Assembly (NCBI GenBank): GCA_013152435.1
Contig: JAADGJ010000067.1
Location: forward strand, 1-33,571
Origin: Chloroflexota bacterium
GTDB taxonomy: Bacteria > Chloroflexota > Anaerolineae > DUEN01
DNA: 33,571 nucleotides
Direction: 5' to 3'
Shown piece by piece: positions 12,983 to 32,476 of the stretch; position 1 is the first letter of the stretch, and every line of letters starts with the position of its first letter. A model generated the notes under the pieces. The model saw only the letters and a program-made list of their open reading frames with translations, was not told the DNA's origin and did not search any database. The position numbers were made by a program, and so were the translations under genes.

Positions 12983-13888
12983 AGCCTGTTATGCACTTTG
13001 AGGAGCGAGGGTCATGGCTCTGACCAAACGCTGCAGCATCAAGATAGCAAATGCCACGACATGAAGCCCGCATAGCACCTCAGCAGTGCGTTCATAGTCT
13101 CGCACCGTCGGAACCGGGTGAGCCAGGCGAAACTGCGTTCGACGACCCACCGTTTGGGCAACAGCACGAAGCCCTTTCTCGTTGCTGGCAATTGGACGAG
13201 CACCAACTCCACTCCGTTATGGGCTGCGTCCTGAGCCGCCTGCTCTCCTGTGTATCCCTGGTGGGCGGACGCAACTTCTATGGAGTGCCCTGTGGCACTC
13301 TGAGCGTCTTTCATCAGCGGTGCTACCTGCGCATGTTCCGCTTCATGGGCAGGAGTGACATGCAAAGCCAGCAGGTAGCCCACGGTATCCACGGCCAGAT
13401 GAAGTTTGCTGCCTTTTCGGCGCTTATAGCCGTCATATCCCGCCCGTGCGCCGCTCTCCGGCGTGGATTGGAGCGTGCGACTGTCCAGAATGGCCACTGT
13501 GGGATGCGGTTCCTTGCCTTGTGCCAAACGCAAGAGCGCTCGCAGATCATGGATCATGGCGACAAACACACCTGCCTTCAGCCACTGACGCGTTTGCTGA
13601 TAGACCGTATGCCAGGGAGGTAAATCGTTGGGCATCATGCGCCATTGGGACCCGGTTTTCACGATCCAGCGCAATCCGTTGTACACTTCCCGCAGGTCGT
13701 GTTCCCGTTGTGGGGCATCCTCTCGCATCAGGGTCAGATAGGGCTTCATGAAGGCCCATTCTTCATCGGTTACGTCACTTGGGTATGGCTTCTTGTTCAT
13801 GACGGAGAGATTACCACGGAAGCATATGATTTCCGCCGTGACAGTATGTGATTTTCGTATGAACGAGCACAAAAGTGCATAACAGCTT
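12983..13888 (-). mobile_element. IS5-family insertion sequence, 906 bp, with CTAG target duplication
   Basis: The ends are imperfect inverted repeats: the left reads AGCCTGTTATGCACTTT and the complement of the right reads AAGCTGTTATGCACTTT. CTAG occurs directly outside both ends (12979-12982 and 13889-13892), the target duplication expected for IS5-like elements. The insertion lies between the vWA lipoprotein gene and the cupin gene, 38 bp before the cupin start. One transposase gene fills the element on the minus strand. Confidence 0.85.
12989..13800 (-). pseudogene. IS5-family transposase, frameshifted near the C-terminus and lacking one catalytic Asp
   Basis: The ATG at 13798-13800 opens MNKKPYPSDVTDEEWAFM, the usual IS5 start, then RWIVKTGSQWRMMP, AILDSRTLQSTPESGARAG (first catalytic Asp), KLHLAVDTVGYLLAL and WVVERSFAWLTRFRR (catalytic Glu). 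Two defects are visible. Where relatives have DQGYTG or DGGYAG with the second catalytic Asp, this copy reads AHQGYTG (CAC instead of GAC, near 13246). After FRR the frame shifts: the reading ends at 13039, whereas a neighbouring frame continues VRDYERTAEVLCGLHVVAF and AILMLQRLV to a stop at 12989-12991, just inside the element end. The copy is very probably inactive. Confidence 0.8.
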
Positions 13889-13926
13889 CTAGGCGGCTTA
13901 TCAAAGCGACTAGGAGGGGCTTTGTT

Positions 13927-14289
13927 ATGAAGAGTGTGGATGGTAAACCACGAGTCTTTCACATCTTGCGTCAGGACGCATTGGAGATCAAAGATACACC
14001 GTTTGGTAGCGTTGGAAAGGTCTTCAGCGGCGAAGGGATAGAGGCCGTCTGGGTAAGGAAACAGAACGAAGATATTGATGCTGATTGGTTCTCGCAGCCA
14101 CTGGTAGATCTCATTCTCGTTGTGCAAGGGAAACTCAAGGTGGAGTTTGAACGATCCGATCTATCACCTCGCGTGCTCGAACCCGGCGATCTTCTAGTCC
14201 TTCCGGCAAACACGCGTTGCCGTGCGTACCGCTGGCCACGTGACGCCAAAGAAGCGACTGTGTTTGTTGCCGTGTATCCTGTGACCTGA
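13927..14289 (+). CDS. Small single-domain cupin
   Basis: A 120-residue cytosolic protein with a cupin-like barrel: LVDLILVVQGKLKVEFE (first motif without the usual HxH pair) and RVLEPGDLLVLPANTRCRAYRW (second motif, G-D-x-x-x-x-P). The metal-binding histidines of classical cupins are not clearly present, so a metal enzyme is doubtful and a binding role is possible. AGGAGGGG at 13910-13917 is a good ribosome binding site. Its upstream region was cut by the IS5 element 38 bp before the start, so its present promoter may be altered. The substrate cannot be predicted. Confidence 0.8.
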   Translation: MKSVDGKPRVFHILRQDALEIKDTPFGSVGKVFSGEGIEAVWVRKQNEDIDADWFSQPLVDLILVVQGKLKVEFERSDLSPRVLEPGDLLVLPANTRCRAYRWPRDAKEATVFVAVYPVT

Positions 14290-14314
14290 AGCATAGAAAT
14301 GCATACAACAGGAG

Positions 14315-14782
14315 CTAAGGATTCGTTTGCGGGCTACCGCTCGTCGTGGATTTCGATAACATCAGGCCGATCAGGCGCAATGCCGCTGCGGCCTCGGCCG
14401 ACTGTTGCCGGGCCGCCTCCCGATTCGGCTGAGCGAAGATCGTCCGGATGGCCGCCGCCACGATCGCCTTGTCCCCCTTGGGCACGTGCGCCAGCACATT
14501 GCGCATGAAGTGCACCCGGCATCGCTGCCAGGCAGCACCGGCCAGCACCTCCCCAATGGCCTCCTTCAGCCCCTGATGCGCATCGCTGATCACCAGCTCC
14601 ATCCCCTGCAGCCCACGAGCCATCAGGCCACGCAGAAAGGCCACCCAGAATGCTTCTTCTTCACTGGCCCCCATGTCTACCGCCAGCACCTCTCGCTCTC
14701 CCGTATCCCGTACTCCCGTTGCGCAGATGCTCTCGCCCTGATCACGAAGTCGGAGTTGATGATACATGGGGTGGATGTCCAT
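14315..14782 (-). pseudogene. IS256-family (Mutator-type) transposase fragment
   Basis: Minus-strand reading gives ATGVRDTGEREVLAVDMG, EEEAFWVAFLRGLMARGLQG, LVISDAHQGLKEAIG, GAAWQRCRVHFMRNVLAHVP and AAIRTIFAQPNREAARQQ, the conserved middle of IS256-type transposases including the second catalytic Asp (SDAH). The N-terminal third with the first Asp and the C-terminal third with the catalytic Glu are missing, and a few residues are lost between RLRDQG and ATGVRD. It is a relic without visible element ends. Confidence 0.85.
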
Positions 14783-19731: not shown

Positions 19732-19761
19732 TTGACAGGCCCGGAGAGGGGCGATTATACT
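19732..19761 (+). promoter_or_regulatory. Near-consensus sigma70-type promoter for the SARP-ATPase-SBP regulator
   Basis: TTGACA at 19732-19737 and TATACT at 19756-19761 are separated by 18 bp. Transcription would start near 19768, leaving a leader of about 130 bases before the GTG start at 19897. The presence of the promoter also shows that the upstream in-frame TTG at 19732 is not the translation start. Confidence 0.75.
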
Positions 19762-19896
19762 GTTGGCGAACAGCGTCGTTCCCCTGTCCCTGTTCTCCTC
19801 CATAACATGCTGCCGGTTGGTGACCTGGTTCGTGTCCTCGTGAGCCGGCGGCCGTTCGTAAGAAATCATCCGCGTGCGCTTGAAGGAGATTCTGCC

Positions 19897-22800
19897 GTGC
19901 CCGCCCTGCGCTTGTATCTGCTGGGCACTCTGAGGATCCAATATGATGATCGGCCGCTGCCCCAGCCCCCTACACTGAAATCCCAGTCCCTACTGGCCTA
20001 TCTGGTCTGCCATCGCGATCGGCCACAGCCACGTGACAGGCTGGTTCACCTGTTCTGGGGCGATCGGCCGGAGCGCAACGCGCGCCGCTCCCTCAACACC
20101 GCCCTGTGGCACATCCGCCATCGTTGCCTCCCCCATGCCGACCTCATCCTGAGCGATGCCCGCATGGTGCAGTTCGATCCCGAAGCGGACCTCTGGCTCG
20201 ATGTGGAAGCCTTCGAGGCCCTGGCATCCCGCGATGATCTGGAGAGCTTGCAGGCCGCCGTGGCGCTCTATCGAGGGGATTTCCTCGAGGGTTTCTACGA
20301 TGATTGGGTGATCAACGAGCGCTATCGGCTGGAGGCGCTGCTCTTCGAAGTGTTGGAGCGGCTGATGGTCGGCTATGAAGCGCGAGAGGAACATGAGGCC
20401 GCGCTGGCCACGGCCCTCCACCTCCTGAATCGCGATCCGCTGCGGGAGGAAGCCCATCGAGCGGCCATGCGCGCCTACTGCCGGCTGGGGCGGCGCAATG
20501 CCGCCCTGGAACAGTACCGCCGCTGCCAGAGGATCGTGCAGGCGGAACTGGGCACGGAGCCGATGGTCGAGACCACCGAGCTTTACCGGGCTATCCTGGA
20601 GGGGCGCATCGAGATCGGGCGCGTGTCCGGGGTTCGAGCGTCCCTTGTGGAAATGCTTCCTGAGACGCCCCCGCCGTCAGGGCGCACGCCGTTGGACGTG
20701 ACCGCAGCCAGCCCGTTGGTGGGGCGGGAAGAGGAGCTGGCGTGTCTGCACCGCTGCTGGCGGGAAGCACAGGCCGGTCGCGGTCGCCTGATCCTCATCG
20801 GCGGCGAGGCGGGCATCGGCAAGAGCCGCCTGATCCAGGCCTTCGCCGATCACCTGCGCTGGCAGGGAACACGAGTCCTGCAGGGCCGCTGTTATGAATT
20901 CGAGCGCCTTCTGCCTTACCAGCCCTTTGTCGAAGTGCTGCGGACGGCGCTGCCCACCCTGACATCCATTGCTATGTCCAACCTGCCCGCCTGGGTTCTG
21001 GGGGAGGTGGCCCGCTTGGTGCCGGAGGTGCTGGAGCAGCCTGCTCAGCGCGTTTCCTCCACGATCCGCTCCGACCAGGAACGTGGCCACCTCTTCGACG
21101 GTGTGGCTCGCTTCCTGTCCACGCTGGCCACGCACGGCCCGCTCCTTATCGTCCTGGAGGATCTGCACTGGGCCACTGAGACCACATTGCAACTGCTTCA
21201 CTATCTGGCGCGCCGCCTGGCCGGACATCCGGTGCTCCTGGTGGGCTCCTATCGGATCGGGGAGGTGGAGCCGCAACACCCCTTCCACGGCCTCAGGGAG
21301 CAACTGCATCGGCAGGGGCTGGCCGTATCGCTACGCCTGCCGCCGCTGTCGGTGGCGGCCGTGGAGGACATGGTGGCGCGAATGTCCGGGGCGGGCGCGG
21401 CGGCGGTCCCCCTGGCCCGGCGGCTGCACCACAAGACGGAAGGCAATCCCCTCTTCATCATCGAGATCGTCAAAGAGCTCTTTGAGGTGGGCACATTGCG
21501 CCTGGTGCAGGGGCGCTGGCAGGGCGATTTCGACCGCCTTAGCGAGGCGGATCTCCCCTTGCCGGCGGGCGTGCGCCAGGTTATCCAGGGCCGAGTGCGT
21601 CGGCTGGATGAAGACAGCCGGATGGCGCTGCAACAGGCGGCCGTCATCGGTCAGGAGTTTGACTTGGAGTTGCTGAATGCCCTGCGGGACGAGGATGAAG
21701 GGGCGACCCTGGAGGCTATCGATGCACTGCTGCGCCACAGGTTGATCGTGGAGGGGGCGGGGGCGATGGGCCGGGATTACGCCTTCTCTCATCACCTCAT
21801 TCAGGAGGCGGTCTACGCCGGGATTCCGCAGCGCCGCCGGCAGTACGTGCACGCGCGGGTGGGGATGGCGATGGAGCGTCTGTACGGCCCGCAGATAGAG
21901 GAATTGGCCGGCGAGCTGGCGTTTCACTTCCAGCAAGGTCGGCTGTTGGACGAGTCTCTGACGGAGAAGGCGATCGCCTACCTGCTGCAGGCGGGGGATC
22001 GGGCGCGCGGGCTGTACGCCCACCGTGAGGCGATTCACTTTTACCAGCAGGCGCTGGCGCTCCTGAACGAGCAAGGTGAATATGAACGGGCAGCGCGGAC
22101 GTTGATGAAGCTGGGGCTTACCTATCACAACGCCTTTGACTTTAAGCGAGCGCGCCAGGCTTATGATGAAGGTTTCGCCCTGTGGCAGCGGGCGGGAGCG
22201 GTTCGGCCGGCGGCCCCCCACGCTCTGAGGGTGCTTTGGAGTGATCCTCTGACCCTGGACCCGACCATGGCCGACGACGTCGTTTCGGTGAGTGTGATCG
22301 ACCAACTCTTCAGCGGGCTTGTGGAGCTGAGTCCGGAGACGGACGTGATACCCGATGTGGCCCGAACCTGGGAGGTTTTGGAAGACGGCCAAAAATATGT
22401 CTTTCACCTGCGGGACGACGTGCGGTGGAGTGACGGAAGCCCGGTAACGGCGGCGGACTTCGAGTACGCCTGGAAGCGGTTGCTCGATCCGGCGATCCGT
22501 TCGCCCATTGCCCGCTGGCTCTTCGGCATCAAAGGTGCCAGCGCCTTCCATCGGGGTGAGGCTGGCAGGGAAGACGTAGGGGTACGGGCCATAGATGAGG
22601 TCACCCTGGTGGTGGAGCTGGAGGGGCCGACCAGCTACTTCCCCCATCTGCTGGCGAGCAGCGCCGCTTATCCCGTGCCCCGGCATGTGGTGGAAACGCA
22701 CGGGGCGTCCTGGACGAAGGTGGAGAACATCGTCACCAACGGTCCTTTCCGGCTGGAGGCCTGGAACCGGGATGAGTACATTTTCCTGTCTCGTAACCCC

Positions 22801-23700
22801 GGGTATCATGGCCGGTTCGAGGGGAACGCTCAGCAGGTGGAGCTGTTCCTGATCCAGGATCCGTATGCCCAATTGGAGATCTACCAGGCCGATGGTCTGG
22901 ACGTCGTGGATCTTTGGGCCCTGCCGGCATCCGAGATGGACCGCGCAAGGCAGCGGCACGCCACGGAGTATATCTCGGTCCCCGTGCCGCGCACCCACTA
23001 TGTGGGATTCAACGTCAGCCGGCCTCCCTTCGACGACCTCCGGGTCCGTCGGGCTTTTGTTCTGGCCACGGACCGGGAGAGTCTGGCGGGGATGGCCATG
23101 AGAGGCCGTCGTTTCCCGGCTACGGGAGGGTTCGTGCCGCCGGGGGTGCCAGGGCACTCATCGGGGATTGGCTTGCCGTATGACCCTGGCTTGGCGCGCC
23201 AACTGCTGGCTGAGGCCGGCTACCCGGGTGGCCGTGGCCTTCCCGCTGTCGAGTCCCTGACGGGGGACGACGATGCCGTGAGGGAGTACCTGGGGGCTCA
23301 ATGGCGAGAAAACCTGGGGGCAGAGATCAAGTGGGAGACGGCGGAGTATGGGGTACTTCGCGATAGGGTAGATCGGGAGCCACCACACATGTTCATCTTA
23401 AGCTGGGGGGCCGCCTATCCCGACCCCGACTTCTTCCTGCGGGTGAGTCCCGCCCGGCGTGACAGCCGGTGGAGGAGCGAAACCTACGATGGACTGGTAG
23501 AACAGGCCAGGAGGGTGACGGATCAGAAGGAGAGGATGAGGCTGTACAGGCAGGCGGACAGAATTTTGGTCGAAGAGGCAGTGATTATGCCCCTCACATA
23601 TGGGCGGATGCACCTGTTGGTGAAGCCATGGGTGAGGAAGTTCCCCACGTCAGCGATCAGGCAGTGGTTCTGGAAGGATGTCATCATCGAGCCGCATTAG
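19897..23700 (+). CDS. SARP-type regulator: winged helix, BTAD, AAA ATPase and TPR fused to an SBP_bac_5 ligand-binding domain
   Basis: A 1267-residue predicted cytosolic protein. Residues 1-105 match the OmpR-like winged helix of SARP regulators (LYLLGTLRIQYDD, LLAYLVCHRDRPQPRDRLVH, RSLNTALWHIRH). The BTAD region (about 105-240) ends QYRRCQRIVQAELGTEP. The STAND/AAA-type ATPase starts SPLVGREEELA (272), with Walker A GGEAGIGKS (302-310) and Walker B LLIVLEDLHWA (about 414-424). TPR-like helices follow (about 690-765). From about 770 to the end is a complete family 5 solute-binding protein (LTLDPTMADDVVSVSVIDQL, LRDDVRWSDGSPVTAADFEY, VRRAFVLATDRESLA) with no signal peptide. GTG 19897 follows GAAGGAG (19882-19888) with 8 bp spacing. 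The closest known logic is SgrR, a DNA-binding domain joined to SBP_bac_5; here the ligand (perhaps a peptide or sugar conjugate) would switch a SARP activator. Confidence 0.92.
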   Translation: MPALRLYLLGTLRIQYDDRPLPQPPTLKSQSLLAYLVCHRDRPQPRDRLVHLFWGDRPERNARRSLNTALWHIRHRCLPHADLILSDARMVQFDPEADLWLDVEAFEALASRDDLESLQAAVALYRGDFLEGFYDDWVINERYRLEALLFEVLERLMVGYEAREEHEAALATALHLLNRDPLREEAHRAAMRAYCRLGRRNAALEQYRRCQRIVQAELGTEPMVETTELYRAILEGRIEIGRVSGVRASLVEMLPETPPPSGRTPLDVTAASPLVGREEELACLHRCWREAQAGRGRLILIGGEAGIGKSRLIQAFADHLRWQGTRVLQGRCYEFERLLPYQPFVEVLRTALPTLTSIAMSNLPAWVLGEVARLVPEVLEQPAQRVSSTIRSDQERGHLFDGVARFLSTLATHGPLLIVLEDLHWATETTLQLLHYLARRLAGHPVLLVGSYRIGEVEPQHPFHGLREQLHRQGLAVSLRLPPLSVAAVEDMVARMSGAGAAAVPLARRLHHKTEGNPLFIIEIVKELFEVGTLRLVQGRWQGDFDRLSEADLPLPAGVRQVIQGRVRRLDEDSRMALQQAAVIGQEFDLELLNALRDEDEGATLEAIDALLRHRLIVEGAGAMGRDYAFSHHLIQEAVYAGIPQRRRQYVHARVGMAMERLYGPQIEELAGELAFHFQQGRLLDESLTEKAIAYLLQAGDRARGLYAHREAIHFYQQALALLNEQGEYERAARTLMKLGLTYHNAFDFKRARQAYDEGFALWQRAGAVRPAAPHALRVLWSDPLTLDPTMADDVVSVSVIDQLFSGLVELSPETDVIPDVARTWEVLEDGQKYVFHLRDDVRWSDGSPVTAADFEYAWKRLLDPAIRSPIARWLFGIKGASAFHRGEAGREDVGVRAIDEVTLVVELEGPTSYFPHLLASSAAYPVPRHVVETHGASWTKVENIVTNGPFRLEAWNRDEYIFLSRNPGYHGRFEGNAQQVELFLIQDPYAQLEIYQADGLDVVDLWALPASEMDRARQRHATEYISVPVPRTHYVGFNVSRPPFDDLRVRRAFVLATDRESLAGMAMRGRRFPATGGFVPPGVPGHSSGIGLPYDPGLARQLLAEAGYPGGRGLPAVESLTGDDDAVREYLGAQWRENLGAEIKWETAEYGVLRDRVDREPPHMFILSWGAAYPDPDFFLRVSPARRDSRWRSETYDGLVEQARRVTDQKERMRLYRQADRILVEEAVIMPLTYGRMHLLVKPWVRKFPTSAIRQWFWKDVIIEPH

Positions 23701-24775: not shown

Positions 24776-27700
24776 ATGAGCGCACGATCTCTTCTGCTCA
24801 CATTGGCCGTGATGCTGTGGGCGGGGATGTGCACCCCCGCGCCCCAAGGTGCTACGTTGATCGCGGGCGACGGTGCCGGAGCTGCTCCGGTCGCTTCTCC
24901 CGCCGTCCCCCCATCCGATGCCGCCCCTGTCGGCCGCCATCTCCGCCTGTGGGCGCGCTCGGGCGATCTGCCCCGCATCTTCCTGCCAGTCGTCATGACC
25001 GGGATTCCAGCCCGCGCTGACGGCGCTCAGCCTCTCATCAGACCGCCGTCGGGAGCCAGCGACCAAAACCCCGCCTTCTCGCCGGATGGCCGCTTCCTCG
25101 TCTTCACCCGCTTTGAGAACGGCTACAACAGCGGCCCGGCGGGCATCTTCCGGCTGGATCTGTCGAGCGGGAAGATCATCCGCCTGACGCCAGAGGAGGA
25201 CCAGGACCATGTCAACCTGCCCGGCTCGGCCTGGAATCCCGTCAAGGACCGCATCGTGTTCGCCTCCGACCGCGCCGACCGTGATGATTTGTGGCAGATC
25301 GCTCCTGATGGCTCGGATCTCACCTCCGTGACGGCTCACGACGGCCCGCCCTGGTACATCGAACCGAGCTGGTCTCCGGACGGGGAGTGGATCGTGTTTG
25401 AGGTGAGGGACGGTGTGCCCGATGGCCGGCAACGGGGGAGCATCTGGAAGGTACGGGCGGACGGGACCGGGCTGACCGTCCTCACCGATGGCCCGGCAGA
25501 GGGAATGGACAACCGCCAGCCGAACTGGTCGCCCACTGGAGGGCGGATCTTGTTCCAGCGCCGCGATCCCGGCAGCGATGGTTGGGACATCTACACGATG
25601 GCCCCGGATGGGACGGATGTCCGCCGGGTTACCGGTCCATCCTCCAGCGATACGGATGCCAGCTGGTCCCCGGACGGTCGGTACATCGTCTACTCCTCCG
25701 ACTATGGGGGCCTGCCCACGTCCAGCATATTCGTCGTCCCAGCAGAAGGGGGGACGCCTGTCCGCGTCACTTTCAGCGATGTCCACGAAGACAGCGCGCC
25801 CTCCTGGTCGCCCGATGGCAGGTGGATCGCGTTCGAATCACGCTTAGGGGAGGGCGAGGACTCGCCGGCCTCGTTGTGGCGCGTGCCCGCGCCCGCTGCG
25901 ACCACTTTCACCTGGCCTGAGTGGGCGTATGAGGCCCGCCTGGCCGGCGTTTCCTTTGAGCCTGACATGAGCGACGCCGAGATCGAGGCCCGGCTGCAGC
26001 GGGCCGTCGAGGATGGTGTCAGCGTATTGGTGGTGGACGCGCCCACCGGCTGGAGTTACATCGCCTGGGTGGACGACGTCGCGTTCAACCGGGTGCTGAC
26101 CCTGATGCGCGATCGCGTCTTCCCCCGTGCCCACGCGAAAGGGCTCAAGGTGATCTGGTACCTTGCTGGCCTGGAGCTGGTGTGTGAGGGGTGTGTGCAG
26201 ACCGGTCGGGACCCGGCGACGGAACATCCTCAATGGATGCAGATCGACCGCGGCGGCGATCCCGTCCAGTTCAGCGGCGTGCAGGGAGTCTTCTGGCTGG
26301 GGCCGGATGATCTGGACGCCTGGCTTTCGCCCGAGTCGCCTTACCGGGACTTCTACATCGGCCGCATTGAGGAGATCGCGGCCGCGGGCGCGGATGGCCT
26401 GTGGATGGATGTCGCCTACCTGCTGAACGGCATCGGCCAGTTCGACGACCTGTGGCCCTCATACGACCCATACAGTCAGGCCGCGTTCCGCGCTGCGTAC
26501 GGCTATGCGGACATCCCCGCCAAGGATTGGGAGGACCCGGCCTGGCGCCGTTTCGTGCGCTGGCGCCAGATCTCCATCGCCCGTTTCGTGCGGGATGTGG
26601 CTGCGGCCGCGCAGCGGCGGACGCCTGGCCTGCTCTTCTTCACCGAAAACTGGGGCGTGGACTCCAATTTCGTCACCCAATACGCGCAAGATCCCCTCGA
26701 TTTCATCACCACCTCCTTCGTGGCCACGGCCCATGAGCTGGAGCCGGTGGATCAGGACGATACGGGCATGGCCGATGCCACCCTCAAGCAATGGCGCGAC
26801 TATGTTCTCATGGTGAAATTCGCAGCCGCTGCGAACAAGGGCAAGCCGGCATGGGTGCTAACCTACGCCGGCGGCGTGGATGACAGCCTGCGCGAGGGAG
26901 GCGTGCACCTGGCTGAAGGGGCGAATTTCTATGAGGCCAAAGGGCCGGAGATGGTGGATGACTCCACCGGCAGCCGCCCCGTCCTCTTTCCCTGGCTGGC
27001 CGCCAACGCGAAGCAGGCTTATCACAGCGACTCCATGGCCGAGGTGGCGGTGTGGTATAGCCCCCGCACGCGCGATTTCATCGACGGCGAGAACGCGGGA
27101 GACAGCAAGTTCGACTACGCGGCCACCACCTATCTCAGAGCGTACCGGAATCTCGGCCAGGATCTGCTCGAGGATCAGGTCCCCTTCGATATCGTCACCG
27201 GCCAATGGTCGCTGGCCGAGTTGAAGCGCTATGCCTGGCTGGTGCTGCCCAACGCCGTCTGCCTGAGCGCGGGAGAGGCCGCTTTACTGCGGGACTACGT
27301 CGCAGCGGGGGGGAAGCTGGTCGTGACCGGGGACACGGGCGAGCGGGACGCATGGTGTCGGCCGCGGTCGGACAACGCCCTGGCCGGGGTTCCCACTTAT
27401 CCCCTCCGCGCCGTGAGCAGTGACCTGCTGCGCACCGACCTCGCCGATGCGGATAAAGGACGGGTGCTCATCGAGCCCCGCCGGGGGGAGGACGAACAGG
27501 GCCCTTTCCTCCTGCTTACCCTGGTGAATTTCGATGCCGGGCGTGATGTCATGGACATCGGCGTCGATCTTCGCCTGCCGGAGGCGTTCCGCCTGGCATC
27601 GGTCGTCTGGAGCGCGCCTGACGCCACGGGCGGCAACCTGGATTTCACCCTCGGAGCCGGCCGTGTGCGTTTCACCCTGCCCGTCTTGCACACCGCGGCG

Positions 27701-27814
27701 GCGATCATTCTCCGCGATGCTGCCCTCCGCCCGACAGGCGGTTTCGGATATCAGTCGGGGATTCCCCCATCCCCTCGCTGCGGTGCCACGCCGCTACATG
27801 CACAGGAGGAGTGA
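24776..27814 (+). CDS. Exported protein: TolB-like PD40 propeller fused to a glycoside-hydrolase-like barrel
   Basis: A 1012-residue protein. Residues 1-25 are a signal peptide (SARSLLLTLAVMLWAGMC), possibly a lipoprotein with Cys19. A short linker contains LPRIFLPVVMTG. Residues about 85-385 hold six PD40/WD-like repeats (SPDGRFLVF, SPDGEWIVF, SPTGGRILF, SPDGRYIVY, SPDGRWIAF). Residues about 390-720 look like a TIM barrel of the clan A or hypothetical glycosyl hydrolase type: KGLKVIWYLAG, AAGADGLWMDVAYL with a candidate acidic residue, and LLFFTENWGVDS with a second one. A Rossmann-like domain (RYAWLVLPNA, LRDYVAAGGKLVVTGDTG) and a C-terminal beta domain follow, as in GH42-like enzymes. Function is probably carbohydrate hydrolysis or binding at the cell surface; the substrate is unknown. 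The next gene starts 1 bp after its stop. Confidence 0.82.
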   Translation: MSARSLLLTLAVMLWAGMCTPAPQGATLIAGDGAGAAPVASPAVPPSDAAPVGRHLRLWARSGDLPRIFLPVVMTGIPARADGAQPLIRPPSGASDQNPAFSPDGRFLVFTRFENGYNSGPAGIFRLDLSSGKIIRLTPEEDQDHVNLPGSAWNPVKDRIVFASDRADRDDLWQIAPDGSDLTSVTAHDGPPWYIEPSWSPDGEWIVFEVRDGVPDGRQRGSIWKVRADGTGLTVLTDGPAEGMDNRQPNWSPTGGRILFQRRDPGSDGWDIYTMAPDGTDVRRVTGPSSSDTDASWSPDGRYIVYSSDYGGLPTSSIFVVPAEGGTPVRVTFSDVHEDSAPSWSPDGRWIAFESRLGEGEDSPASLWRVPAPAATTFTWPEWAYEARLAGVSFEPDMSDAEIEARLQRAVEDGVSVLVVDAPTGWSYIAWVDDVAFNRVLTLMRDRVFPRAHAKGLKVIWYLAGLELVCEGCVQTGRDPATEHPQWMQIDRGGDPVQFSGVQGVFWLGPDDLDAWLSPESPYRDFYIGRIEEIAAAGADGLWMDVAYLLNGIGQFDDLWPSYDPYSQAAFRAAYGYADIPAKDWEDPAWRRFVRWRQISIARFVRDVAAAAQRRTPGLLFFTENWGVDSNFVTQYAQDPLDFITTSFVATAHELEPVDQDDTGMADATLKQWRDYVLMVKFAAAANKGKPAWVLTYAGGVDDSLREGGVHLAEGANFYEAKGPEMVDDSTGSRPVLFPWLAANAKQAYHSDSMAEVAVWYSPRTRDFIDGENAGDSKFDYAATTYLRAYRNLGQDLLEDQVPFDIVTGQWSLAELKRYAWLVLPNAVCLSAGEAALLRDYVAAGGKLVVTGDTGERDAWCRPRSDNALAGVPTYPLRAVSSDLLRTDLADADKGRVLIEPRRGEDEQGPFLLLTLVNFDAGRDVMDIGVDLRLPEAFRLASVVWSAPDATGGNLDFTLGAGRVRFTLPVLHTAAAIILRDAALRPTGGFGYQSGIPPSPRCGATPLHAQEE

Positions 27815-29651: not shown

Positions 29652-29777
29652 TGGATGAAAAGGGCGAGAGGACGCTTACTCCCATGGCCCCCTGAACAGG
29701 TGAAGGAGCCTGATGATGTGGGCTGCAGAATGGCTGCAAGAGCCATTGGGATATGGGAGAGCTTAGGGGGAACGCTC

Positions 29778-31118
29778 ATGTGTGATACATTCGTGGCCCT
29801 GCACGACGCCACCGCCGATGGCTCGGTGATCTTCGGCAAGAACAGCGATCGGGATCCCAACGAGGCCCACGAGTTGGTGCTCATCCCTCACAGTCGCCAC
29901 CCGCCAGGCAGCACGGTCAAGCTGACCTATGTCGAGATCCCGCAGGTGGAGGAGACCTGCGCGGTGCTGCTGGCCAAGCCCTTCTGGATCTGGGGATGCG
30001 AGATGGGGGCCAACGAGCACGGCGTGGTCATCGGCAACGAGGCCGTGTTCACCAAGGTGCCCTATGAGAAGGAGCCGGGTCTGATCGGCATGGATTTCAT
30101 CCGCCTGGCTCTGGAACGGGCTGATACGGCCCGGGCCGCACTGGACGTGATCACCGGGCTGCTGGCTCAGTACGGCCAGGGTGGGAATTGCGGCTTCGCC
30201 AGGAAGCTCTACTACCACAACAGCTTCATCATCGCCGATCCGTCGGAGGCCTGGGTGCTGGAGACGGCGGGGCAGGAATGGGCCGCCGTCCGGGTGACCA
30301 GCGGCGTGCGCAGCATCTCCAACGCCATCACCATTGGCTCCGAGTGGGATCTGGCTTCCGATGGACTGGTGTCGTATGCTGTTGAGAGAGGCTGGTGCAA
30401 AGGCCGGGAGGATTTTCACTTCGCCCGCTGTTACTCCGACTTCCTCTATACCCGCTTCAGCGCCGCTCGTTTCCGCCAGAGCTGCACCACGCGGCGGTTG
30501 CGCGAGAAACAGGGCCAGCTCACCGTCGCCGATGCGATGGCGATCCTGCGCGATCACGGGCCGCAGGCCGGGCCGGACTGGACGCCCGCCCGGGGGGTGA
30601 TCGGGTCGACCGTCTGCATGCACGCCGGCTTCGGTCCGGTGCGGGTCAGCCAGACCACCGGCTCCATGGTCTCGCGCCTGACGCCGGAGAGCCAGACCCA
30701 TTGGCTGACTGGGACGGCCGCGCCGTGCACGGGCATCTTCAAGCCGGCGTGGATCGACGCCGGCCTGCCGGATCTGGGCCCGGCTCCCACCGGCACGTAT
30801 GACGAAGCGACTCTCTGGTGGCGGCATGAGGCGTTGCATCGCGCCGTGCTGCGGGACTATGCCGTTCGGCTATCCGCCTATCGGGAGGAGCGGGACGAGC
30901 TGGAGGCGGGCTTTATCGCCGCGGCGATGGAGCATCTGGACGCGCCACCGGATCAACGCCTGGCCTTCTCCGCCCAATGCTTCGCCGAGGCTGCTCAAGC
31001 CACCGGGCGTTGGACGGAGCGGGTCCGCTCCACGCGCCCCAGGGGGCGGCTACCGTGGTATTATGCGCTCGCCTGGCGACGGTTTAACCGGCAAGCCGGG
31101 TTCCCGGAGCCCCAATAA
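29778..31118 (+). CDS. Peptidase C69 / secernin-like Ntn hydrolase
   Basis: A 446-residue predicted cytosolic hydrolase. It starts MCDTFVALHDATADGSVIFG, followed by KNSDRDPNEA, the hallmark of the C69 dipeptidase and secernin group; Cys2 becomes the N-terminal nucleophile after Met removal. Further blocks are WGCEMGANEHGVVIGNEAVF, EPGLIGMDFIRLALERA and IADPSEAWVLETAG, and STVCMHAG later. The ATG at 29778 is fixed by the nucleophile position, since longer starts would bury Cys2; its ribosome binding site is the weak AGGGGGAA. Family members cleave dipeptides or acylated amino acids. The stop overlaps the amidase ATG at 31118, so the two are probably co-expressed. Confidence 0.9.
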   Translation: MCDTFVALHDATADGSVIFGKNSDRDPNEAHELVLIPHSRHPPGSTVKLTYVEIPQVEETCAVLLAKPFWIWGCEMGANEHGVVIGNEAVFTKVPYEKEPGLIGMDFIRLALERADTARAALDVITGLLAQYGQGGNCGFARKLYYHNSFIIADPSEAWVLETAGQEWAAVRVTSGVRSISNAITIGSEWDLASDGLVSYAVERGWCKGREDFHFARCYSDFLYTRFSAARFRQSCTTRRLREKQGQLTVADAMAILRDHGPQAGPDWTPARGVIGSTVCMHAGFGPVRVSQTTGSMVSRLTPESQTHWLTGTAAPCTGIFKPAWIDAGLPDLGPAPTGTYDEATLWWRHEALHRAVLRDYAVRLSAYREERDELEAGFIAAAMEHLDAPPDQRLAFSAQCFAEAAQATGRWTERVRSTRPRGRLPWYYALAWRRFNRQAGFPEPQ

Positions 31119-31153
31119 TGCACCTAGAGAGCCTGCATCAGGAGCGCGCACGG

Positions 31154-32476
31154 ATGGAAGAGTTGGTATACGCCTCGGCCACCACACTGGCCCGTCGGAT
31201 TCGTGATCGAGAGATCTCCTCGGAAGAGGTCGTCCAGGCCCACCTCCAACAGATAGAGCGGGTCAATCCCCACCTGAATGCCATCGTCCAGCTGGTAGCT
31301 GAAGAGGCCCTTGAACAAGCCCGTGCTGCTGACGCGGCACTCATGCGGGACCAGCGGATCGGCGTGCTCCATGGCGTCCCCTTTACCGTCAAGGACTGGA
31401 TCGACGTCGCCGGATTACCCTGCACCGGGGGAGACCCTCGCTTCAGAGATCGCCGACCACAGGAAGATGCCACAGTCGTCGCCCGGATGCGCCAGGCGGG
31501 AGCTATCCTATTGGGCAAGACCAATGTGATGGTTGAAAACCCGGTCTATGGACGCACTAACAATCCCTACAACCTGGCCTATAGTCCTTGCGGAAGTAGC
31601 AGTGGTGAAGCAGCACTGATCGCCGCCGGTGGGTCTCCCCTTGGCTTGGGATCGGACTCTGGCGGCAGTATCCGCCAGCCGGCCCACGCCTGCGGCATCG
31701 CCGGGCTCAAACCAACAACGGGCCGGATCCCGCTGACCGGTCACTTCCCCTTCATCAGTGCTATGAACGACCCACGCACCACGATTGGCCCCATGGCCCG
31801 CTACGTGGAGGACCTGGCGCTGGCGCTGCCCATCCTCTCCGGGATGGACTGGAAGGATGCGAGTGTAATCCCGATGCCCCTCGCAGACTGGCGAGCTGTC
31901 GATGTGCGGTCACTTCGGGTCGCATTCTATACGCATCATGCGGAGGCCGAGCCCACTCCCGAGACGGTTGAAACGTGCCATCGGGCGGCCCAGGTTCTGG
32001 CGGAGGTGTGTGCGAGCGTGGAGGAAGCCCTGCCGCCGCGCATCGAGGAGGCCTACTTCATCACGCGCCAGTACTGGCAGCGACCAGAGTCTATGTGCGC
32101 GGAGGAGTGGGTGCCGGATGGGGAAGTCAGGCTCAGCAGCGAGGAGGTCGAACAGCACCTGTTTATGTGGGATCGCTTCCGCCGGGCGCTCATTGGTTTT
32201 ATGGCACACTACGATGTGATCCTGACGCCCGTTGCTGAGCGTCCGGCAGTGCCGCATGGCACGGATAGCGGTCGCATTCCGTACACCTTGCCCTATAGCC
32301 TGACCGGCTGGCCGTGCGTGGTCGTGCGCGGTGGGACGTCACCTGAAGGATTGCCCATCGGGGTGCAAGTCGTCGCGCGGCCTTGGCAGGACGATGTAGC
32401 ACTCGCCGTGGCCCGGGAGCTTGAGCGGGAGCTCGGCGGGTGGCAGCCACCCCCTATCTCCCATACAACCGTGTAG
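31154..32476 (+). CDS. Amidase-signature-family hydrolase
   Basis: A 440-residue amidase with the Ser-cisSer-Lys triad: Lys in VPFTVKDWIDV, and the Ser pair in SPCGSSSGEAALIAAGGSPL and GSDSGGSIRQPA. The rest (GLKPTTGRIPLTGHFPF, GPMARYVEDLALAL) is typical; length is slightly short for the family (about 450-500). The ATG at 31154 follows AGGAG (31140-31144) by 9 bp; the alternative ATG at 31118 overlaps the stop of the C69 gene. Signature amidases hydrolyse carboxylic amides, from small nitrile-derived amides to peptide amides, or act as GatA; the lack of gatB/gatC nearby argues against GatA. With the C69 gene it may form a small amide or peptide salvage unit. Confidence 0.9.
   Translation: MEELVYASATTLARRIRDREISSEEVVQAHLQQIERVNPHLNAIVQLVAEEALEQARAADAALMRDQRIGVLHGVPFTVKDWIDVAGLPCTGGDPRFRDRRPQEDATVVARMRQAGAILLGKTNVMVENPVYGRTNNPYNLAYSPCGSSSGEAALIAAGGSPLGLGSDSGGSIRQPAHACGIAGLKPTTGRIPLTGHFPFISAMNDPRTTIGPMARYVEDLALALPILSGMDWKDASVIPMPLADWRAVDVRSLRVAFYTHHAEAEPTPETVETCHRAAQVLAEVCASVEEALPPRIEEAYFITRQYWQRPESMCAEEWVPDGEVRLSSEEVEQHLFMWDRFRRALIGFMAHYDVILTPVAERPAVPHGTDSGRIPYTLPYSLTGWPCVVVRGGTSPEGLPIGVQVVARPWQDDVALAVARELERELGGWQPPPISHTTV

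Follow-up and report, generated by a model that had tools for sequence, protein, structure and literature searches.

What is a solute-binding domain doing inside the cell, on one chain with a DNA-binding domain and an ATPase? Domains of the SBP_bac_5 family normally serve nutrient uptake outside cells. The question is raised by a single gene in a 33,571-nucleotide stretch of DNA from a Chloroflexota bacterium (contig JAADGJ010000067.1 of assembly GCA_013152435.1), which we call the window. The gene encodes a 1267-residue protein in which a SARP output domain, a STAND ATPase, a short run of TPR repeats, and a complete solute-binding protein (SBP) domain follow one another. Our answer, which we consider fairly probable, is that this protein is a cytosolic one-component STAND regulator, in which a peptide-binding-protein fold replaces the TPR array and a ligand of the SBP domain gates the ATPase.

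Domain architecture of the protein

The gene and its parts, all on the forward strand, are as follows:

19897..23700, + strand: whole SARP-STAND-TPR-SBP_bac_5 gene, 1267 residues (open frame and homologues)
19897..20616, + strand: SARP output domain, winged helix plus BTAD, residues 1-240 (BTAD profile; AfsR and EmbR matches)
20713..21966, + strand: STAND ATPase core and arm, residues 273-690 (AAA_16; fold matches)
20803-20826, + strand: Walker A motif GEAGIGKS, within the ATPase core
21142-21174, + strand: Walker B motif LLIVLEDLHWA, within the ATPase core
21967..22206, + strand: two-repeat TPR connector, residues 691-770, where the shared cassette described below begins (similarity break; residues 731-770 unlike STANDs that lack an SBP)
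22213..23697, + strand: SBP_bac_5 domain, the proposed sensor, residues 773-1267 (Pfam, OppA alignment, DppE fold)

The frame is uninterrupted from the GTG codon at 19897 to the stop codon at 23698-23700. Its amino-terminal part has the order that defines SARP proteins, an OmpR-type winged helix and then BTAD: Pfam places BTAD at residues 114-234 (E 1.7e-25), the solved SARP domain of AfsR aligns with residues 3-235 (5.3e-8) and longer AfsR chains with residues 3-314, and the predicted fold agrees; the winged helix by itself scored under the Pfam cut-off (Trans_reg_C, 17.3 bits versus 26.2). The next part has the make-up of a STAND protein, in which AAA+, helical, and winged-helix domains make up a nucleotide-binding oligomerization domain (NOD) and an arm comes next, as recognized from the AAA_16 match at residues 273-449 (E 2.2e-30) and from a structure model of residues 1-690 (predicted local distance difference test [pLDDT] 82.3, predicted template modeling score [pTM] 0.52). 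In this model the SARP part resembles AfsR and EmbR, and the ATPase part resembles Apaf-1, CED-4 (Z 17.8, root-mean-square deviation [rmsd] 5.8, 332 residues), MalT (Z 15.6, rmsd 16.7, 349 residues), and PH0952 (Z 14.5, rmsd 17.0, 314 residues).

The C-terminal TPR array that is typical of MalT- and AfsR-type STANDs is reduced here to about two repeats (TPR_12 at residues 709-764, below the Pfam threshold), which are followed by SBP_bac_5; this part is a connector and no sensor array. The SBP_bac_5 domain (PF00496) itself was matched at residues 817-1182 with E 2.3e-76 (257.8 bits versus a gathering cut-off of 32.4), and the alignment with OppA spans almost the entire SBP half of the protein (7e-66). 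A model of residues 265-1267 (mean pLDDT 85.4, pTM 0.67) predicts a complete fold of the OppA/DppE type in its open form: the SBP part matches unliganded Bacillus DppE with a template modeling score of 0.90 and rmsd 2.7 and, in a second comparison, with Z 38.9 and rmsd 2.1 over 483 residues.

No signal peptide or transmembrane helix was found in the frame, where the two highest 19-residue hydropathy peaks (1.46 and 1.42) are too weak for either; the higher one comes from the stop-to-stop frame and lies in its portion 5' of the GTG. There is also no ABC (ATP-binding cassette) permease or ABC ATPase among the 20 window proteins tested. The protein therefore lacks the export signal of an ABC-importer SBP and has no permease partner among those 20 proteins, and its SBP domain is predicted to be cytosolic, sharing a chain with a DNA-binding domain. 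An earlier sequence-only reading of this DNA had claimed as much: a winged helix-BTAD-ATPase-TPR regulator continuing in one frame into a complete SBP_bac_5 domain, cytosolic and with no transporter genes adjacent. Pfam, the AfsR and OppA alignments, and the hydropathy profile bear this out, save that its TPR repeats, although present, amount to a connector.

A cytosolic SBP might still work with a membrane permease or transporter, either docked on it or held inactive by it, and read transport flux instead of free ligand, in the way that MalT is held by MalK. The genome does contain many ordinary family-5 SBP genes; however, importers receive SBPs at their outer face and no permease gene is adjacent, and we regard this arrangement as quite improbable.

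Recurrence of the fusion across Chloroflexota

The window comes from a 149-contig draft assembly, in which a fusion could be an assembly join or hide a missed frameshift. However, the same one-frame junction is present in many independent assemblies, including contigs of 1.9 and 5.35 Mb, and this rules out an artifact, the probability of which we consider negligible. The 5.35-Mb sequence is the single contig of one genome (G616). Four copies on it span the junction (the SBP of one contains a run of Ns), and two further matches are partial.

Altogether, we extracted 61 distinct ATPase-SBP_bac_5 fusions (65 frames minus four duplicates), every one from Chloroflexota and some on megabase contigs. 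The Walker A pattern is kept in 58 of them, and hydropathy peaks in the other fusions do not exceed 2.1, the strongest lying inside the output or ATPase parts. A query across the junction (residues 691-900), run against 396 genomes of the class, returned two kinds of match: those covering the TPR connector and SBP together, almost all in long frames, and those starting only at the SBP, after the connector, mostly in frames of about 500-700 residues, like free SBPs. By our own count, about 45 of the 396 genomes carry matches to the connector plus SBP. In an even sample of the phylum, the junction was matched in 9 of 400 genomes, from six families. A peptide-pattern scan of 84,980 species, which reaches close relatives only, found loci matching both the ATPase and SBP parts solely in Chloroflexota. 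None of the matches listed has the homologous junction as two genes. The sequence-only reading had proposed looking for the same architecture across Chloroflexota and had named an assembly join or frameshift, or homologues that are always two separate genes, the second with a signal peptide, as grounds for giving it up; the search succeeded and neither ground was found.

The number of copies varies among genomes. The genome of the window has 17 BTAD matches, 12 of them strong, and only one is fused to SBP_bac_5, and a member of the same genus (G400) has three junction-spanning fusions. In one copy of the kinase type (L055/L157:4108-7754, + strand), the SBP is divided over two overlapping frames, by a frameshift or a sequencing error.

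A putative sensor cassette joined to different ATPases and outputs

A tree of 80 SBP sequences groups the SBP domains of the fusions in one clade (support 100/99, recovered in all bootstraps) with no free SBP inside it; because sampling was seeded by similarity to the window SBP, clustering nearby is expected. On the other hand, the ATPase halves of the fusions are dispersed among STANDs without an SBP. Their tree implies 13 changes, at least 7 of which are forced by supported branches (12 changes without the truncated sequence L051), and a constraint placing them in a single clade is rejected (log-likelihood lower by 769; approximately unbiased test, p-AU 4.3e-66). The conflict between the SBP and ATPase trees rules out a single whole-protein fusion passed down intact.

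The alignments locate the boundary between the two histories. When the window protein is compared with fusions that have distant ATPases, similarity breaks sharply near residue 691: identity is mostly 20-45% through residue 690, about 40-85% per ten-residue step over residues 691-770, and mostly 40-65% across the SBP. SBP-less STANDs share 25-55% identity with the window protein in the first TPR and just 7-27% over residues 731-770, and all six SBP-less relatives tested have TPR arrays beyond the position of the connector, MalT-like in several. Residues from about 691 to 1267, the TPR connector and the SBP together, are thus a putative sensor cassette at the position of the TPR array in MalT/AfsR-type proteins.

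The N-terminal parts of the 61 fusions, classed by comparison with Pfam-confirmed examples, fall into SARP (30 proteins), SARP with a Ser/Thr kinase (2), class III cyclase (22), CHAT with a cyclase (1), kinase (2), HTH_31 (1), no recognised output (1), and truncated sequences (2). A single SBP clade therefore bears at least five output types, and on a larger SBP tree (a quick tree with several weak forks) the output type changes 14 times, versus a possible 3. The tree conflict, the identity break, and the output changes indicate that the cassette (residues 691-1267) and the N-terminal halves have recombined many times. Judged by these trees and alignments, a unit of TPR connector and SBP has become attached to a variety of STAND ATPases with different output domains. 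The term sensor-activator, given to this protein initially, fits the SARP version but describes only one version, since the cassette also occurs with cyclases and kinases.

Several individual proteins have unusual arrangements. Behind the TPR connector, one fusion frame (L272:625-4638, - strand) has a tandem pair of SBP_bac_5 domains, residues 333-827 and 846-1334. Another (L160:7995-13016, - strand) combines CHAT, a class III cyclase, STAND, and SBP_bac_5 in a single frame that overlaps a downstream frame of 2260 residues by 61 bases, and two others (L047:8977-13560 and L053:9046-13299) carry SARP, Ser/Thr kinase, STAND, and SBP_bac_5 on one chain. Outside the fusion clade, L170:271-3114 (- strand) encodes a Ser/Thr kinase, a strong transmembrane helix (hydropathy 2.58 at 379), and then SBP_bac_5, i.e., a receptor kinase whose SBP is apparently extracellular. 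In L168:4373-8887 (- strand), SBP_bac_5 is followed by a Peptidase_C25 match in the same frame of 1505 residues.

The putative ligand pocket

In OppA, Asp419 holds the amino end of the bound peptide. The position aligned with it in the window protein is:

23413..23415, + strand: Ala1173, aligned with OppA Asp419 (alignment)

The equivalent of Asp419 is kept in 40 of the 56 scorable fusions versus 48 of 50 free SBPs, and that of Trp416 in 48 of the 56. Because both residues are mostly kept, peptide-like ligands are expected for most fusions, and the ligand of the family is probably a cytosolic small peptide or peptide-like metabolite. The window protein itself lacks the OppA-type aspartate that binds the peptide amino end, and its ligand may therefore differ from that of the family; it may be one without a free amino end, or it may be weakly bound. 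Some residues, spread over both lobes, vary less among fusions than among free SBPs.

Proposed mechanism and alternatives

In STAND proteins, the arm and the sensor keep the NOD closed on ADP until an inducer frees it, whereupon ATP binds and the protein multimerises; in known cases it is the sensor that binds the inducer (PMC6468293). In AfsR, the SARP domain is restrained by the NOD and TPR until ATP binding (PMC10936776). In the window protein, a ligand would close the SBP cleft, the movement would be relayed via the TPR connector to the arm, and the ADP-closed ATPase core would open, take ATP, and multimerise; the SARP domains would then recruit RNA polymerase to target promoters. On the simplest reading, closure of the cleft would be the counterpart of inducer binding in MalT.

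Gating of the ATPase through a cytosolic, probably peptide-like ligand is, in our assessment, the most likely role of the SBP domain, and this idea is strongly, though indirectly, supported by the fact that the domain lies where a sensor is expected and is found combined with many STANDs of different outputs. For the family as a whole, the balance tips slightly toward the view that the TPR-connector plus SBP_bac_5 cassette had a single origin and is an exchangeable receptor in the cytosol, its ligands probably being peptides of imported or internal origin; attached to many STAND ATPases, it would serve gene-activation, cyclic-nucleotide, kinase, and CHAT-linked outputs.

Several points weigh against ligand gating. 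The Asp419 equivalent is alanine in the window protein, as it is other residues in a minority of relatives, and other positions in the lobes are more variable in fusions than in free SBPs. Interdomain placement is unreliable in both structure models, as their pTM values indicate. We infer the ligand, the gating, ATP switching, DNA binding, and the target alike. Finally, the neighbouring genes point to no peptide pathway except a C69 peptidase and an amidase (29655-32476), 6 kb away; a peptide-derived signal would be natural, and these two genes are suggestive of one.

The changes in the pocket could also mean that the SBP does not sense a ligand and is a protein-docking or scaffold piece, which took over from the TPR array as a platform for partners or sets the geometry of the oligomer. 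TPR arrays often bind proteins, the window copy has lost the aspartate, as have roughly a quarter of the scorable fusions, and the fusions are less constrained than free SBPs at many positions. However, the two-lobed fold is complete, Trp416 and Asp419 are retained in most fusions, and the residues with increased conservation are found in both lobes; a scaffold role thus appears rather unlikely to us. Even less probability attaches to the SBP being a decaying passenger on an ordinary ATP-controlled SARP protein. This would fit the lost pocket residue and the two related loci with a broken or fragmentary SBP (the divided copy L055/L157 and the partial matches in G616), but the domain remains full-length over deep divergence, in many copies that form one clade and have no stops.

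Promoter, gene start, and neighbouring genes

Three further features, upstream and downstream of the domains described above, bear on expression and possible targets:

19732..19761, + strand: predicted sigma-70-like promoter TTGACA-18-TATACT (11 of 12 matches; mean 0.0 in shuffled sequences)
19882..19889, + strand: Shine-Dalgarno-like GAAGGAGA, 7 bases 5' of the GTG start (read from the sequence)
24776..27814, + strand: next long co-directional gene (PD40 propeller repeats; N terminus weakly hydrophobic)

The promoter, which had been described as near-consensus, is real as a sequence pattern. The PD40 gene is a possible target; downstream genes of this kind are not peculiar to regulators with an SBP. 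Within 1.5 kb downstream, 11 of 27 fusions have a co-directional gene with a signal-like N terminus, versus 9 of 19 TPR-type STAND controls (L203-L222, with L205 left out). Because a downstream gene for an exported-type protein is equally common beside the controls, it is no evidence about the SBP; these SARP/STAND regulators of the class may typically have a neighbour of this type, whatever their sensor. A single shared target among the downstream genes was also considered and rejected, as the Pfam matches were to exported proteins of various kinds (FG-GAP, CBM96, beta-helix, subtilase, and sortilin). Elsewhere in the window, a VWA/lactonase-propeller gene and a glycosyltransferase gene flank two adjoining transposase genes or remnants, one IS4/5-type and one Mutator-type (13039-14782, - strand).

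Comparison with known systems

STAND ATPases include bacterial regulators as well as plant and animal immune receptors, and they have been described with repeat-array sensors. If our interpretation is true, there is a class of STAND receptors that sense via a two-lobed binding protein instead. The inducer of AfsR is unknown, as it is for many STANDs (PMC10936776); a sensor built from one of the best understood bacterial ligand-binding folds would offer a practical route to a STAND inducer and could reveal how a movement as simple as the closing of an open cleft drives the switch. The swap of one sensor in nature among gene-activator, cyclase, and kinase outputs would be a ready-made plan for biosensors. 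It also suggests that a Chloroflexota protein of 1000-1500 residues with SBP_bac_5 is to be interpreted as a signalling protein, not as part of a transporter. We found no paper on STAND-SBP fusions in the open literature, and InterPro architecture tables may list the combination uncommented.

The nearest known systems each share some parts with the window protein. AfsR-type large SARPs (SARP-NOD-arm-TPR; PMC10936776) have the same output and STAND core, but where AfsR has a tentative TPR sensor, the window protein has a two-TPR connector leading into an SBP. MalT and PH0952 (PMC6468293) are alike by fold in the NOD, winged helix, and arm and have their sensor at the same position; however, that sensor is a repeat array instead of a two-lobed binding protein, and the window protein has a SARP output instead of LuxR. 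The TOMM kinase/cyclase fusion proteins (TIGR03903) have the AAA_16-TPR middle and the kinase or cyclase outputs seen in relatives of the window protein, which itself scores 197 bits against a cut-off of 705.75, over residues 245-736 only, and thus falls outside that family.

On the SBP side, OppA, DppE, and MppA have the whole fold in common with the window SBP, which, unlike them, has no signal peptide or adjacent permease and has alanine in place of Asp419. SgrR and DsvR, the latter described with an HTH and SBP_bac_5 (PMC13060122), also place SBP_bac_5 inside the cell on a transcription factor, but they have no ATPase or SARP, their HTH is of another type, and the SBP is attached directly to it. 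The comparison with SgrR drawn from the sequence alone is thus apt as a working likeness and not as family membership, since the window protein has no SgrR-type N-terminal HTH and an ATPase intervenes before its SBP. We class the protein, whose output is SARP, as a member of both the STAND superfamily and the SBP_bac_5 domain family that works like MalT and AfsR as a switch and also like SgrR. Its parts are known and the pairing of this sensor with this switch is new; the evidence that such pairing is modular and recurrent is good.

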